Below are positions 57,931-64,000 of a stretch of DNA of 64,000 nt, piece by piece. The stretch is from NCBI GenBank assembly GCA_023150875.1, contig JAKLKC010000002.1:178737-242736 (forward strand). Direction: 5' to 3'. Position 1 is the stretch's first letter. Each line of letters starts with the position of its first letter. A program made the translations under genes and the position numbers. The notes beneath the pieces are model-generated. The model was not told where the DNA came from. It did not search any database and saw nothing but the letters and a program-made list of their open reading frames with translations. This stretch comes from Myxococcota bacterium. GTDB taxonomy: Bacteria > Myxococcota_A > UBA796 > UBA9615 > JAKLKC01.

Positions 57931-58150
57931 TCAGCCAGGCGCCCAGGGCGGTGTTGAGCCAGCGGACCTCGGGGGCGTAGGACGCCGCGAAGGCGATGGC
58001 GATCACGGCGATCCCCACCAGGACGTCGTTCCAGGTCGCGGCGACCCCGGGGTAGCCCAGGATGAAGGGCGCCAGGATCAGCCAGGCGCCGAGGAGGATG
58101 CTCGGCCAGCGGATGGGGCTGGCGGACGTCTCGATGTCGTCGCGAGTCAT
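57794..58150 (-). CDS. SPW-repeat membrane protein
   Basis: Small membrane protein of 118 residues made of two copies of the SPW unit: ASPIRWPSILLGAWLILAPFILGYPGVAATWNDVLVGIAVIAIAF and PEVRWLNTALGAWLIIAPWVIGYAFARATWNDVIVGILVVVFS. Each has two membrane helices, so four in all. The GGGAGG 7 nt upstream supports the ATG at 58150; the ORF track adds 46 spurious residues. The family is widespread but has no established function. The gene's 3' part is overlapped by the extended M28 reading frame on the other strand. Confidence 0.9.
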   Translation of the reverse strand: MTRDDIETSASPIRWPSILLGAWLILAPFILGYPGVAATWNDVLVGIAVIAIAFAASYAPEVRWLNTALGAWLIIAPWVIGYAFARATWNDVIVGILVVVFSLAPGVERTGGRREVRV

Positions 58151-58398
58151 TGGGACCTCCCGGGCGCGCGGCGGTGTCCCCCGCGGGTCGCCTCGCGCCC
58201 CGGGGGCGTGGGGCTGCAACGGGCACGCCACCGCTCCCCGGAGCCCCGGGCGCGGAGCGGCGGGGAATTCGTGGTGGCGATGGGGCACTCGGACCGGCTA
58301 TAGACGGAGGAGGGAGCGGTCTCGCCTGCCCGCTCCCTCCCCATGGGCCACCCCCAGGGCCCTCCCCCGACCCCGATCCCCCTACCGCGAGAGAACCG

Positions 58399-61300
58399 AT
58401 GCCGTTGCCGCGCCCGAGGCCGTTTCCCCGAGCGACCGTCCCCCTCTCCCTGTCCCTGCTGCTGGCCCTGGCCGCCGCCTCCGGGTGCGGCACCGCCGGC
58501 TCCCAGGAGACCCCCGCCGCCGAGTCGACGCCGCTCCGCTTCGACGTCCGGACCTTCGACCCCCTGGCGGCCCCCTTCGACCCAGAGCCCGACCTGACCG
58601 CCCGCCTGCCGGAGTCGGGGCGGGCCTATGCCGTCCTCCAGTTCGGCGGCCCGGTCCGGACGGAGTGGAAGCGCCACATCTCGACCCTCGGGGTGCGCTT
58701 CCACGGGTACGTCCCCGATCGCGCCTTCGTGGTCGGCCTCGACGCCGGCCGCCTGGACGAGCTCCGGGCCCTCCCCTACGTGCGGTGGATCGGCCCCTAC
58801 CACCCCGCGTACAAGCTCGGCACCAGCCTCGGGACCGTCCCCCTCCACCCCGAGGTCGCCCACGGGGATCCCCGCCACGTGCTGGACATCGACCTCTTCC
58901 TGGGCGAGGACGCCCGGGGCACCGCCGACGTCATCGAGTCCATCGGCGCCGAGGTCGGCTTCGTCGTCGAGAACGCCTTCCAGGCCCGGATCCGGGTGAA
59001 GGCGACGCTGGAGCAGGCCCGGGAGATCGCCTCCCTGGAGGCGGTCCGCTACGTCGAGGAGCGCTCCGGGATCGTGATGCGGAACGACACCGTCGCTACC
59101 GCCGTCCAGTCCGACACCACCACCGACAGCCCGGTGTGGGACGCGGGGATCCACGGCGAGGGCCAGGTGGTGGGGGTGATCGACGGCGCCGTCGACGTGG
59201 ACCACTGCTTCTTCGACGACACCGAGGCCGTCGGGCCCACCCACCGCAAGGTCGTCGGCTGGTATCCCGATGCCGCTCCCGGGGCGTACACCGACTCCCA
59301 CGGGAGCCACGTCGCCGGCACCATCGCCGGCGAGGACCTCACGGGGGTGAGCGACAGCCACAACGGCGTGGCGTGGGCCGCCAAGCTCTCCGTCGGCGAC
59401 GTCGACGACATCGCGGGGTGGAACAACACCCCCTCCACCCTCTTCGAGTACCTGGAGGCGGCGTGGCTCGACGGAGCCCGCGTCCACACCAACTCCTGGG
59501 GCGAGGACTACCGCACCGACTACACCACCTTCGCCCGGGAGGCGGACCTCTACACCTGGACCTACGAGGACGCCATGGTGGCGTTCGCGGTGTCCAACAC
59601 CAGCCGCCTCTACACCCCCGAGAACGGCCGGAACGTGCTGGCCGTCGGCGCCACCCAGGCCGCGCCCAGCACCGACACCCACTACTCCGGAGGCACCGGG
59701 CCCACCGTCGACGGCCGCCGCAAGCCCGAGGTCTACGCCCCGGGCAACCAGACCACCTCGACCAACGACGACACCACCTGCGGCACGACCAACATGGGGG
59801 GCACCTCCATGGCCGCCCCCGCCGTCGCGGGTGCCGCGGCCCTGGTGCGGCAGTACTTCGCCGAGGGCTGGTACCCCCAGGGCTCCCCCGACCCCGCCCG
59901 GGCCTTCGAGCCGTCGGGGGCGCTGCTGCGGGGTGCCATGGCCCACTCCGGCCGGAACATGACCGGCGTGTCGGGCTACCCCAGCGACAAGGAGGGGTGG
60001 GGGAAGATCGTCATCGACGACGTCCTGCACTTCCCCGGCGACGCGCGCCGCCTCTGGGTCCGGGACGTCCGCCACGCCGCGGGGCTGGAGACGGGCGAGG
60101 TCGCCGAGTATTCCGTCGAGGTGCTCTCCGGCGGCCAGCCCCTGCGGGTCTCGCTGGTCTGGACCGACGCGTACGGCACCCCGGGCGCCAACCCCGCCCT
60201 GGTGGACGACCTGGACCTGGAGGTGGTCGCCCCCGAGGGGACCTACAAGGGCAACGTGATCGATGCCGCCAGCGGCGAGTCCACCCTCGGCGGCAGCGCC
60301 GACGGCGTCAACAACATGGAGCACGTGATCGTCGATCCCCCGACCGCCGGCACCTACACCATCCGGGTGCGGGGCACCGACGTCCCCGAGGGGCCCCAGG
60401 GATATGCCGTCATCGTGACCGGCGACGTGCCCGAGGACGGCGGCGAAGGCGGAGGCGACGAGGACCTCGACGCCGACGGCTTCACCCCCGCCGACGGCGA
60501 CTGCGACGACGGGAACGCCGCCGTGTTCCCCGGCGCCACCGAGGTCTGCAACGCCACCGACGACGACTGCGACGGCTCCGTGGACGAGGGGCTCCCGGCG
60601 GAGACCTTCTTCCTGGACCTCGACGGTGACGGGTTCGGCGACCCCCTCGCCCCCCTGGACTCCTGCGACGGCGCCCCCGCGGGATACGTCGCGGACTCCA
60701 CCGACTGCGACGACGCCGCGTCCACGATCAACCCCGGCGCGGTGGAGGTCTGCGGCGACGGCGTGGACCAGGACTGCGACGGCGCCGCCGACGAGGGCTG
60801 TCCCGCGGAGGCCTGCTCCGTCGCGCCCGTGTCCCCCGTGGACGGCGGAAACCTCAGCTCCGGCCGGGTCCGCTTCACCGGGGACTGCGTCGCCTACGTC
60901 CTCCAGGCGAGCACCGACGCCTCCTTCCCCGACTGGGCGACCCACTGGTACGGCCCCATCGCCGAGGCCGCCGACACCCAGACCTACACGGTCTCCAGCT
61001 CCCTGTGGAACACCGACGGCCGGTACTTCACGGACGGCGGCTACTGGCGCCTGGTGGGGGTCGCGGCGGACGGGACCACCACCGAGTCCGAGGTCCGCTC
61101 CTTCTACACCACCAAGACGCCCCTCGCCGACCTCGTCCCCAACGCCACCTGCTCCGCCTCCATCGTCGGCCCCCCCAACGGCAGCGTCTTCACCAACAGC
61201 CCGACCTGGCGCTGGAGTGGCAATTGCGCCGCCTACCGCCTGGAGGTGAGCGCCGACTCCGCCTTCCCCGCGGGGTCCACCTGGTACTACGGCCGCACCG

Positions 61301-61443
61301 CGGCGGCGAGCTACCGCTTCCCGAATACGACCTGGAACTCCATGAAGCCGGGGTTCGTGGGGGGTGGCTACTGGCGGGTCGTCGGCGGCGCCCTCGACGG
61401 GGCCCACCCGTCGACGACCTACTCCTTCTCCACCACTCCCTAG
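58399..61443 (+). CDS. Subtilisin-like serine protease lipoprotein with metal-binding motifs
   Basis: Exported S8 protease of 1,014 residues. Lipoprotein signal MPLPRPRPFPRATVPLSLSLLLALAAASGCGT (lipobox ASGC). The propeptide-like region (residues 60-230) precedes the catalytic triad: Asp in VVGVIDGAVDVDH (about 260), His in DSHGSHVAGTIAGEDL (about 300), Ser in NMGGTSMAAPAVAGAAALV (about 470). A P/homo-B-type strand domain follows. Residues 690-800 contain two putative metal-binding units (DCDDGNAAVFPGATEVCNATDDDCDGSVDEG, DCDDAASTINPGAVEVCGDGVDQDCDGAADEG). The last 200 residues are a duplicated domain (CSVAPVSPVDGGNLSSG...GYWRLVGV; CSASIVGPPNGSVFTNS...GYWRVVGG). A TATAGA box at 58299-58304 is a possible -10. 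Confidence 0.9.
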   Translation: MPLPRPRPFPRATVPLSLSLLLALAAASGCGTAGSQETPAAESTPLRFDVRTFDPLAAPFDPEPDLTARLPESGRAYAVLQFGGPVRTEWKRHISTLGVRFHGYVPDRAFVVGLDAGRLDELRALPYVRWIGPYHPAYKLGTSLGTVPLHPEVAHGDPRHVLDIDLFLGEDARGTADVIESIGAEVGFVVENAFQARIRVKATLEQAREIASLEAVRYVEERSGIVMRNDTVATAVQSDTTTDSPVWDAGIHGEGQVVGVIDGAVDVDHCFFDDTEAVGPTHRKVVGWYPDAAPGAYTDSHGSHVAGTIAGEDLTGVSDSHNGVAWAAKLSVGDVDDIAGWNNTPSTLFEYLEAAWLDGARVHTNSWGEDYRTDYTTFAREADLYTWTYEDAMVAFAVSNTSRLYTPENGRNVLAVGATQAAPSTDTHYSGGTGPTVDGRRKPEVYAPGNQTTSTNDDTTCGTTNMGGTSMAAPAVAGAAALVRQYFAEGWYPQGSPDPARAFEPSGALLRGAMAHSGRNMTGVSGYPSDKEGWGKIVIDDVLHFPGDARRLWVRDVRHAAGLETGEVAEYSVEVLSGGQPLRVSLVWTDAYGTPGANPALVDDLDLEVVAPEGTYKGNVIDAASGESTLGGSADGVNNMEHVIVDPPTAGTYTIRVRGTDVPEGPQGYAVIVTGDVPEDGGEGGGDEDLDADGFTPADGDCDDGNAAVFPGATEVCNATDDDCDGSVDEGLPAETFFLDLDGDGFGDPLAPLDSCDGAPAGYVADSTDCDDAASTINPGAVEVCGDGVDQDCDGAADEGCPAEACSVAPVSPVDGGNLSSGRVRFTGDCVAYVLQASTDASFPDWATHWYGPIAEAADTQTYTVSSSLWNTDGRYFTDGGYWRLVGVAADGTTTESEVRSFYTTKTPLADLVPNATCSASIVGPPNGSVFTNSPTWRWSGNCAAYRLEVSADSAFPAGSTWYYGRTAAASYRFPNTTWNSMKPGFVGGGYWRVVGGALDGAHPSTTYSFSTTP

Positions 61444-61463: not shown

Positions 61464-63335
61464 CTAGATCGTCAGGACGATCCCCCCGCACCCCAGGAAC
61501 ACCGGCCGGCCGTCCACGACTCCCGCGATCCCCCCGATCTCCACCCCGGGGGCCCGCTCCTTGCCGGGCCGGACGATCAGCAGCAGCTCCGCGCCCCCGC
61601 CGACCCCCGGCACGTCCGACGTGGGGTTCCACGCCCCCATCAGGAACACCCCCCGCACCACCGGGGCCACCACCCCGCGGAGCCCCACCCCGATCCGCCC
61701 CAGGGGGATCCAGCGCGCCGCGTCCTCGCTGTCCCGCCGCCACGCCGCCAGGAAGCCGCCCCCGACGTGGAGCGGCGTGCGCGCCACGTGCCCCCACACT
61801 CCGACGTCTGCGGTCCCGAACCCGGCCAGGCCGAACCGCAAGTACCCGCCTCGCAACGAGATCCACAGTCGATCCGCCCGCGGGACCGGGGCGTCGGACG
61901 GGGCCTCCCGCCCGGGGGCCCCGGGGGCGCCGCCCCGTGCCTCGGCCGCCCGGGCCGACCCCGGCAGGGCCAGGAGGAGCAGCGCCACCACCCACGGGGC
62001 CCCCCGCGCCGCCCACCCGCCGCGGCCCGGGCGCCGCCTCCAGCTCCGGGCCCAGAGGCAGGCGACCCCGAGCGGCAGGGCCAGCCCGCCCGGGCCTCCC
62101 GCGCCCCCCGACGCGCAGTACAGGCCCTCCAGGTCCGGGTAGGGGCACTCGTCCTCGGGGTCGTCCACCCACCCGTCGCAGTCGTTGTCCCGGGAGTCGT
62201 CGCAGACCTCGGTCAGGCCGTGGGCGGCCAGGGCGTCCCGGTCGTCGCAGTCCTCGCCGAAGGGGTCGCCGTCCCCGTCCAGGTCCCAGTAGACGGACTC
62301 CGGCCCCCCGAACGGCCCGATGTCCGCCCGGGTGCCGTCGGGATCCCCCTCGTTGGGGTCCCCGGTGTTGGCCAGCCCCGAGCGGCCCTTCAGCCGCATG
62401 TCCAGGCCGTCGCAAGACCGCTCCAGGAAGTGCACCTCGACGAAGTCGGGAGCGACGTCCAGGTCGCTGCCGTTGGGGTCGCAGGTGGACAGGCCGCCGA
62501 TCTCGTACCAGTCGTTCCACCCCGAACCGCCGGGTGGCAATGCGCACGACAGGCCCGCCTCGGACCACCCCACCGCGTTCATCGCCACCCGCGCCGTGGC
62601 CGATCCCTCCTGGAGCTCCACCCCCGCCACCCCCGCGAAGACCACGCCGTTGTGGGCGATCTCCCCCGCGAAGCCCTCCCCGGCCCGCACGCCGATGCGG
62701 CAGTCGCAGACCTGGTTGTTCCAGGCCCCCGCGCCGCCGTCCTCCAGGAGGATCCCGGCGCCGTCCACCCCGGTGACGAGGTTGGCGACCACCCGGGCCT
62801 CCCCGGCGACGGCGATCCCCGCCTTCGCCGCCCCGGAGACCGCGTTGGCGACCACGTGAGAGGCGCCGCCGAAGACCCGGATCCCGTGGTCGCCGGTGGT
62901 CCGCACGTCGTTGTGGCGGATGTCGAAGACGTGCTCCGGCCCCGTGCCGCCGATGGCCCGCACCCCGTCCCCCGAGCCCCGCAGGGTGAAGCCCGAGACG
63001 GTGCCCCCGGGCTGGATCCGCACCGCGAAGTCCGCCCCCCCGGACTCGATGGTCGTCACCGACGCCCCGTCCCGGGACCGGAGGACCACCGGGGGAAGGG
63101 GGAACCCTCCGTCGGACTCGGGGAGCGTGGGATCGCCGTAGGCGAGGTCCACCGCCCCCTGGTACGTCCCCGGGGCGACCACCACCTCGTCCCCGGGCGC
63201 CGCCGCGGCGACCGCCGAGGCGATGTCGAGGTAGGGGCCCTGCTCGGGATCCACGGTCAGCGTCGCCGCCCGGGCGGGGCCGCCCGCGGCCAGCATGGTC
63301 AGGACGACGAGAACCGACGACCGGCCTTGGGCCAT
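61464..63335 (-). CDS. Right-handed beta-helix surface protein fused in frame to a beta-barrel-like domain
   Basis: ORF of 623 residues. Signal peptide MAQGRSSVLVVLTMLAAGGPARA, then a parallel beta-helix (residues 25-310) with DIASAVAAAAPGDEVVVAPGTYQGAV as first coil and repeated G/N turns. A metal-binding-type motif follows (DCDDRDALAAHGLTEVCDDSRDNDCDGWVDD). Next comes LYCASGGAGGPGGLALPLGVACLWARSWRRR, a Cys-helix-Arg tail. Where such proteins normally end, the frame continues into WVVALLLLALPGSARAAEA, which looks like a second signal peptide, and a 140-residue strand-rich domain (LWISLRGGYLRFGLAGFGTADVGVWGHV ... GIAGVVDGRPVFLGCGGIVLTI) resembling an outer-membrane barrel. It may be two genes joined by loss of a stop. 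A TAGCAT box (63365-63370) is a weak -10. Confidence 0.8.
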   Translation of the reverse strand: MAQGRSSVLVVLTMLAAGGPARAATLTVDPEQGPYLDIASAVAAAAPGDEVVVAPGTYQGAVDLAYGDPTLPESDGGFPLPPVVLRSRDGASVTTIESGGADFAVRIQPGGTVSGFTLRGSGDGVRAIGGTGPEHVFDIRHNDVRTTGDHGIRVFGGASHVVANAVSGAAKAGIAVAGEARVVANLVTGVDGAGILLEDGGAGAWNNQVCDCRIGVRAGEGFAGEIAHNGVVFAGVAGVELQEGSATARVAMNAVGWSEAGLSCALPPGGSGWNDWYEIGGLSTCDPNGSDLDVAPDFVEVHFLERSCDGLDMRLKGRSGLANTGDPNEGDPDGTRADIGPFGGPESVYWDLDGDGDPFGEDCDDRDALAAHGLTEVCDDSRDNDCDGWVDDPEDECPYPDLEGLYCASGGAGGPGGLALPLGVACLWARSWRRRPGRGGWAARGAPWVVALLLLALPGSARAAEARGGAPGAPGREAPSDAPVPRADRLWISLRGGYLRFGLAGFGTADVGVWGHVARTPLHVGGGFLAAWRRDSEDAARWIPLGRIGVGLRGVVAPVVRGVFLMGAWNPTSDVPGVGGGAELLLIVRPGKERAPGVEIGGIAGVVDGRPVFLGCGGIVLTI

Positions 63336-63399: not shown

Positions 63400-64000
63400 T
63401 CAGCGGCGACGCTCCAGCGCGGAGGCCAGGAAGTCCCTGCGGACCTCGGGATCGTCGCGGAAGACCCCGGTGAAGCTGGTGCTCACGATCTCGCAGGGGC
63501 GTTTGACGCCCCGGGCGATCACGCACATCGGCGCCGCTTGCACGACGCAGGCCGCGCCCCGGGGGGCCAGCACCCGGTCCAGGACGGCGGTGACGTCCCG
63601 GGTCAGCCACTCCTGGAGGGTCAGGCGATGGGCCAGGGCGTCCAGCAGCCGCACCACCCCCGAGAAGCCCACGGCGAGTCGGCCCGGGACGTACCCGATG
63701 TGGGCGGTGCCCCGGTAGGGCATGAGGTGGTGGGGGCAGGACGAGAAGAACTCGATGTCCGAGACCACCACCATCTGTCCCCCCTCGTCGGGGAAGGGCT
63801 CCCCGAGGGCCGCCTCGGGGTCCAGGCGGTATCCCCCCAGCAGGTCCCGGCTCCACGCCTCGGCGACCCTCCGGGCGGTCTCCCTCAGGTGGGGCTCCGC
63901 GTCCACGGGGAAGCCCGCCCCCCGGAGCAGGGCCTCCACCCCCAGGCGCATCGCCGCCTCGTCCGGGGGCGCGTCGGGCCGGATCCTGCCCTCGATGGGC
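63400..64000 (-). CDS. folE: GTP cyclohydrolase I, divergent (5' end outside window)
   Basis: FolE of the T-fold superfamily, first step of folate/pterin synthesis, cut by the window edge: the frame stays open past the ATG at 63951 (PDAPPDEAAMRLGVEALLRGAG), so the true start lies beyond 64000. Recognisable parts: ETARRVAEAWSRDLLGGY, FFSSCPHHLMPYRGTAHIGYVPGRLAVGFSGVVRLLDALAHRLTLQEWLTRDVTAVL, and CVIARGVKRPCEIVSTSFTGVF. Zinc ligands are kept (Cys in SSCPHH, the His, and Cys in APMC). However, two residues differ from the standard enzyme: CEHH reads CPHH, and the catalytic His equivalent to E. coli His179 (VHYC) is Pro (APMC). Activity may therefore stop at the ring-opened formamide intermediate. 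Confidence 0.88.
   Translation of the reverse strand, partial: PIEGRIRPDAPPDEAAMRLGVEALLRGAGFPVDAEPHLRETARRVAEAWSRDLLGGYRLDPEAALGEPFPDEGGQMVVVSDIEFFSSCPHHLMPYRGTAHIGYVPGRLAVGFSGVVRLLDALAHRLTLQEWLTRDVTAVLDRVLAPRGAACVVQAAPMCVIARGVKRPCEIVSTSFTGVFRDDPEVRRDFLASALERRR

Follow-up and report, generated by a model that had tools for sequence, protein, structure and literature searches.

The 64,000-nucleotide stretch of Myxococcota DNA analysed here (hereafter the window) closes with a folE gene of the proline type on the minus strand (63400..64000), identified from a profile match, the contig sequence and a structural model. The frame that is complete within the window (63400-63951) opens at an internal ATG and encodes 183 residues. 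Reading the contig sequence revealed that the window end cuts the gene and that the frame runs on upstream of it; the true start is probably a GTG at C103:242756 (window-equivalent 64020), about 20 bp past the window end, from which the product would comprise about 205 residues. The neighbouring frames at 58150-61443 (plus strand) and 61464-63335 (minus strand) encode large proteins in which Asp-rich DGDCDD...CDG repeats are discernible by eye; repeats of this kind are characteristic of surface proteins in myxobacteria.

Its fold, zinc site and profile match place the window protein in the FolE family. Residues 9-177 match PF01227 (GTP_cyclohydroI) with 156.5 bits against a cut-off of 27. The score against the TIGR00063 folE equivalog is 127.5 bits, below its cut-off of 181.6, and that against NF006825 (PRK09347.1-2) lies at the cut-off of 174, with 174.1 bits from the ATG and 173.5 when the longer start is used, a threshold that related CPHH proteins clearly exceed. 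The AlphaFold model is confident (mean pLDDT 92.2) and its top Foldseek matches are ordinary FolE structures, including 9p8z (TM 0.90, E 2.2e-18) and 1wm9 (TM 0.87); the TM of 0.90 is to M. tuberculosis FolE.

Just beyond the window end, upstream of folE and likewise on the minus strand, lies a gene for a 125-residue PTPS/QueD homologue (L082:6754-7131), whose TGA stop overlaps the probable GTG start of folE by four bases as GTGA, the two sharing an operon. The same two genes adjoin one another in all three proline-type genomes with enough flanking sequence (G000, G002 and G003). The partner protein retains the zinc histidines and the CxxxHGH motif, a signature of PTPS-I/QueD (PMC5041015). It differs from these COG0720 enzymes in carrying Arg-Gly where the catalytic Asp-His is expected, and it scores below the QueD cut-off. 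Indeed, at this site the folE-adjacent PTPS proteins of G000, G002 and G003 read RG, DG and NG respectively, against DH in active PTPS proteins. DH is also retained in the adjacent PTPS of Archangium-type loci and in the syntenic PTPS of G001, where folE is missing between the PTPS gene and the gene that follows. Among the genomes compared, loss of Asp-His from PTPS was thus seen only beside a proline-type FolE, an association of three genomes from one order that are not statistically independent. The partner probably acts on the same pterin as FolE or on a related one.

Several further features of these loci can be recorded. Synteny between G001 (L201) and G003 (L004) suggests that folE was lost from between the PTPS gene and a conserved downstream gene that looks glycosidase-like. 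A gene resembling an isochorismatase-like hydrolase by eye adjoins the PTPS genes of G000, G002 and G003 and is found upstream of the QueD-FolE pair in Archangium (L203:7576-8611; L205; L206; L043:3635-4243).

Active-site residues of the window FolE

The window protein was aligned to the E. coli, human and Thermus FolE proteins, and E. coli numbering is indicated below by Ec. The initial annotation had described a zinc Cys/His/Cys site that is kept, CPHH in place of CEHH and APMC in place of VHYC, and the alignment bears out both substitutions, as do the sequences of four genomes. The CPHH motif (63727..63738, minus strand) contributes the zinc ligands Cys72 and His75 together with His74, the equivalent of Ec His112, and the third ligand is Cys143 (63523..63525, minus strand), such that Ec Cys110, His113 and Cys181 are all retained. 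Gln113-Glu114 (63610..63615, minus strand) correspond to the conserved Ec Gln151-Glu152, which serve guanine recognition (PMC4005822). Ser135, Arg139 and Arg185 are likewise preserved. The T-fold, the zinc ligands, His112, Gln151-Glu152 and Arg185 are all shared with GTP cyclohydrolase I of the FolE/GCYH-IA type (PF01227, TIGR00063).

Set against canonical FolE, three positions have changed. Pro73 (codon 63733-63735) replaces Ec Glu111, and Pro141 (63529..63531, minus strand) replaces the catalytic Ec His179. At Ser97-Gly98 (63658..63663, minus strand) Ec Ser135 is kept and Ec Lys136, a substrate-site residue, has become Gly98, a change additional to the two in the initial annotation. Glu111 and Lys136 are invariant in the 32 canonical sequences compared, in contrast to the Pro and Gly of the window FolE. 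The alignment is gapless around position 179 and brings no other histidine to it, which rules out a misalignment concealing an equivalent; the histidines specific to the class, at alignment positions 44 and 131, fall elsewhere in the sequence. No compensating acid-base residue for His179 was identified in the window FolE.

In the Thermus enzyme, the equivalent of His179 protonates guanine N7 and that of His112 donates a proton to the ribose oxygen (PMC4005822). That E. coli His179 mutants stop short of the product had been invoked in the initial annotation, correctly to judge from the title of Bracher 1999 (ref 40 of PMC7750480), according to which such mutants form a 5-formylamino pyrimidinone triphosphate. 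GTP ring opening, at ~5 s-1, is far faster than the overall turnover of 0.05 s-1 (PMC7750480). Although the laboratory mutants are altered at the same position, they carry single changes in a canonical site, whereas the window protein is naturally selected and has Glu111 and Lys136 changed as well.

Distribution and phylogeny of FolE proteins lacking His179

All four genomes of the window's order that possess FolE share CPHH together with PMC, and the proline state can therefore be ascribed neither to sequencing error nor to chance. A contig scan for the nearest relatives returned three with this same combination; other near relatives, including Archangium and Azoarcus MAGs, have CPHH with Gln179, and the alphaproteobacterial ones are canonical. 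Many FolE relatives also occur in phage and plasmid records, every one at <60% identity.

Loss of His179 is not unique to the window protein but characterises a large class. PF01227 was detected in 75 of 94 genomes (the window genome and its relatives), and 95 proteins were aligned. Glu111 is present in 32 of these, every one of which has Ser135 and Lys136, and 31 have His179, the remaining one being truncated. Conversely, none of the 52 proteins without His179 (47 with Gln and five with Pro at that position) keeps Glu111; Glu111 is lost with His179 kept in 11 of the 95. In these sequences, Glu111, Lys136 and, for the most part, His179 are lost together in a Myxococcota-centred class of FolE that usually has Gln at 179. 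The class is already represented in NCBIfam, as the FolE subfamily NF006825, within which proline is less often the residue at 179. Nothing was found for NF006825 that states that its members lack His179 or names their product, and no experimental work on the naturally His179-less class was found in the literature searched. Nor was a solved structure of the class obvious, the best sequence matches shown being ordinary FolEs.

In the phylogenetic tree, the C[A/V]HH proteins form one group (support 100/100), as do the CPHH proteins (97/88). A single clade (100/99) unites the order's four proline proteins, with ~60% identity across the four genomes. The fifth proline case, in G089, stands apart on a long branch. 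These groupings are to be read with root placement unsettled and with the canonical group recovered as a single clade at only 75/30. The CPHH/Gln179 FolE of the Azoarcus MAGs (L005, L006), the sole FolE of each MAG, is nested among Myxococcota sequences, for which horizontal transfer or a binning error are possible explanations.

The folate context

In the window genome, which is 98% complete, profile searches detected a single PF01227 gene; the second folE that the initial annotation had proposed to look for was not found, and neither was FolE2 (PF02649). FolE2/GCYH-IB belongs to a different family with the same expected product and stands in for FolE in related genomes. One FolK, one FolP and two PTPS homologues are encoded, and no FolB was found in the window genome. 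The second PTPS homologue (C145) reads EPMHGH...DFDHQHLNE and so combines an intact Asp-His with ExxHGH, the folate signature of PTPS-III in COG0720 (PMC5041015). By its motifs, this homologue would replace the absent FolB. The substrate of PTPS-III is dihydroneopterin triphosphate. In G001, G002 and G003, where FolB is present, the second PTPS homologues are without the Glu of ExxHGH.

Within the order, G000, G002 and G003 have a proline FolE without FolE2, G004 and G005 show the reverse, G006 has both and G001 neither, a pattern in which proline FolE and FolE2 look interchangeable. Further afield, the closed genome G077 possesses FolB, FolK and FolP with a Gln179 FolE as its sole type I enzyme, and G007 and G011 resemble it in all of these respects and are without any PTPS. 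The Archangium and Azoarcus MAGs have a single PF01227 gene each; in Archangium, the CPHH, Gln179 FolE lies near QueD and what by eye are FolB-like and SDR genes. In some other relatives, G018 and G051 among them, a FolE without His179 occurs alongside FolE2 or a canonical FolE. G001, G009 and G015 possess FolB, FolK and FolP, yet neither FolE nor FolE2 was found in them, and a search with a profile of the divergent FolEs turned up no more divergent FolE either. An unrecognised source of dihydroneopterin triphosphate, or GTP cyclohydrolase, may hence exist in the phylum.

A probable divergent GTP cyclohydrolase and its alternatives

We consider it probable, at roughly 60%, that the window protein is a zinc-dependent GTP cyclohydrolase I of divergent type which, despite the loss of Glu111, Lys136 and His179, would still make 7,8-dihydroneopterin triphosphate to feed the folate pathway. 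This reading is favored because the protein is the sole FolE of its genome, FolE2 is absent, and the genome also encodes FolK, FolP and a PTPS-III-type homologue in place of FolB; the same considerations weaken the suggestion in the initial annotation of a changed final product. The apparent interchange of proline FolE and FolE2 in the order, and the Gln179 FolE of G077, G007, G011 and the Archangium MAGs, count in its favor as well. Under such a scheme, the zinc-bound water and His112 would open the ring in the normal way, solvent or a rearranged pocket would take over the steps that are credited to His179, and PTPS-III would then produce hydroxymethyldihydropterin. Against this stand the arrest of the E. 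coli His179 mutants at the formamidopyrimidine (Bracher 1999, as cited in PMC7750480), the want of an identified compensating acid-base residue, the gap in G001, G009 and G015, and the coexistence of His179-less FolE with FolE2 or canonical FolE in relatives such as G018 and G051.

That arrest at the ring-opened intermediate is equally the point of departure for an unlikely alternative, in which the proline FolE stops at the formamidopyrimidine nucleotide, or its deformylated form, and the PTPS partner or a different enzyme carries out the remaining deformylation, rearrangement or cyclisation. The initial annotation had envisaged a partner enzyme finishing the reaction; that suggestion still stands, if with low probability, and a candidate partner gene lies just outside the window. 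The GTGA overlap and the conserved adjacency in each of the three proline genomes with flanking sequence speak in its favor, as does the occurrence of RG, DG or NG exactly in the proline genomes, with DH in the folE-less G001 and in Archangium. It stays in play mainly because the partner's site is altered. Nevertheless, G007 and G011 manage with a Gln179 FolE and no PTPS at all, if their folate pathway is real, few independent genomes are involved, and no PTPS is known to perform such chemistry. We consider it less likely than a working GTP cyclohydrolase I. Cast more specifically as a two-enzyme GTP cyclohydrolase, in which the translationally coupled PTPS without Asp-His finishes the reaction or redirects it towards a pterin not yet described, the proposal is somewhat more doubtful still.

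The absence of FolE and FolE2 from G001, G009 and G015, which nonetheless have FolB, FolK and FolP, hints at an unrecognised precursor source, which weakens the sole-enzyme argument and counsels caution over both the working-enzyme and the divided-reaction readings. Such a source could supply the folate precursor, leaving the FolE-PTPS pair to make a pterin of another kind, a rather improbable arrangement that also draws some weight from several relatives in which His179-less FolEs accompany FolE2 or canonical FolE; however, no such cyclohydrolase has been identified, no source other than the pair is visible in the window genome, and the distribution of FolE and FolE2 in the order looks like replacement. 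Decay to a non-enzymatic protein could explain the loss of several substrate and catalytic residues, and is very improbable for a protein that keeps its zinc ligands, Gln151, Glu152, His112, fold and frame at ~60% identity over four genomes and is the sole FolE of its genome. Least probable of all is the supply of queuosine or another 7-deazaguanine precursor with the QueD-like neighbour: CxxxHGH is indeed the signature of PTPS-I/QueD, but the neighbour lacks the catalytic pair of QueD and falls short of its cut-off score, and no full-length QueC was found in the window genome or the order, where short weak matches only were seen (a 23-bit partial match in the window genome). The absence of QueC largely refutes this role, and with it the deazapurine precursor of the initial annotation.

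Taken together, the divergent GTP cyclohydrolase I that we favor would bring into focus a large class of FolE without His179 that apparently serves as the only enzyme of the cell, and in which Glu111, Lys136 and His179 behave as a linked set. His179 has been considered necessary for the later steps of GTP cyclohydrolase I catalysis, a claim that a natural class without it makes directly testable. Since the class is annotated plainly as FolE, databases may over-annotate its members. The three relatives with folate genes and without a known cyclohydrolase point to another gap. Finally, the paired loss of residues in FolE and in the PTPS beside it could signal a new pterin step.
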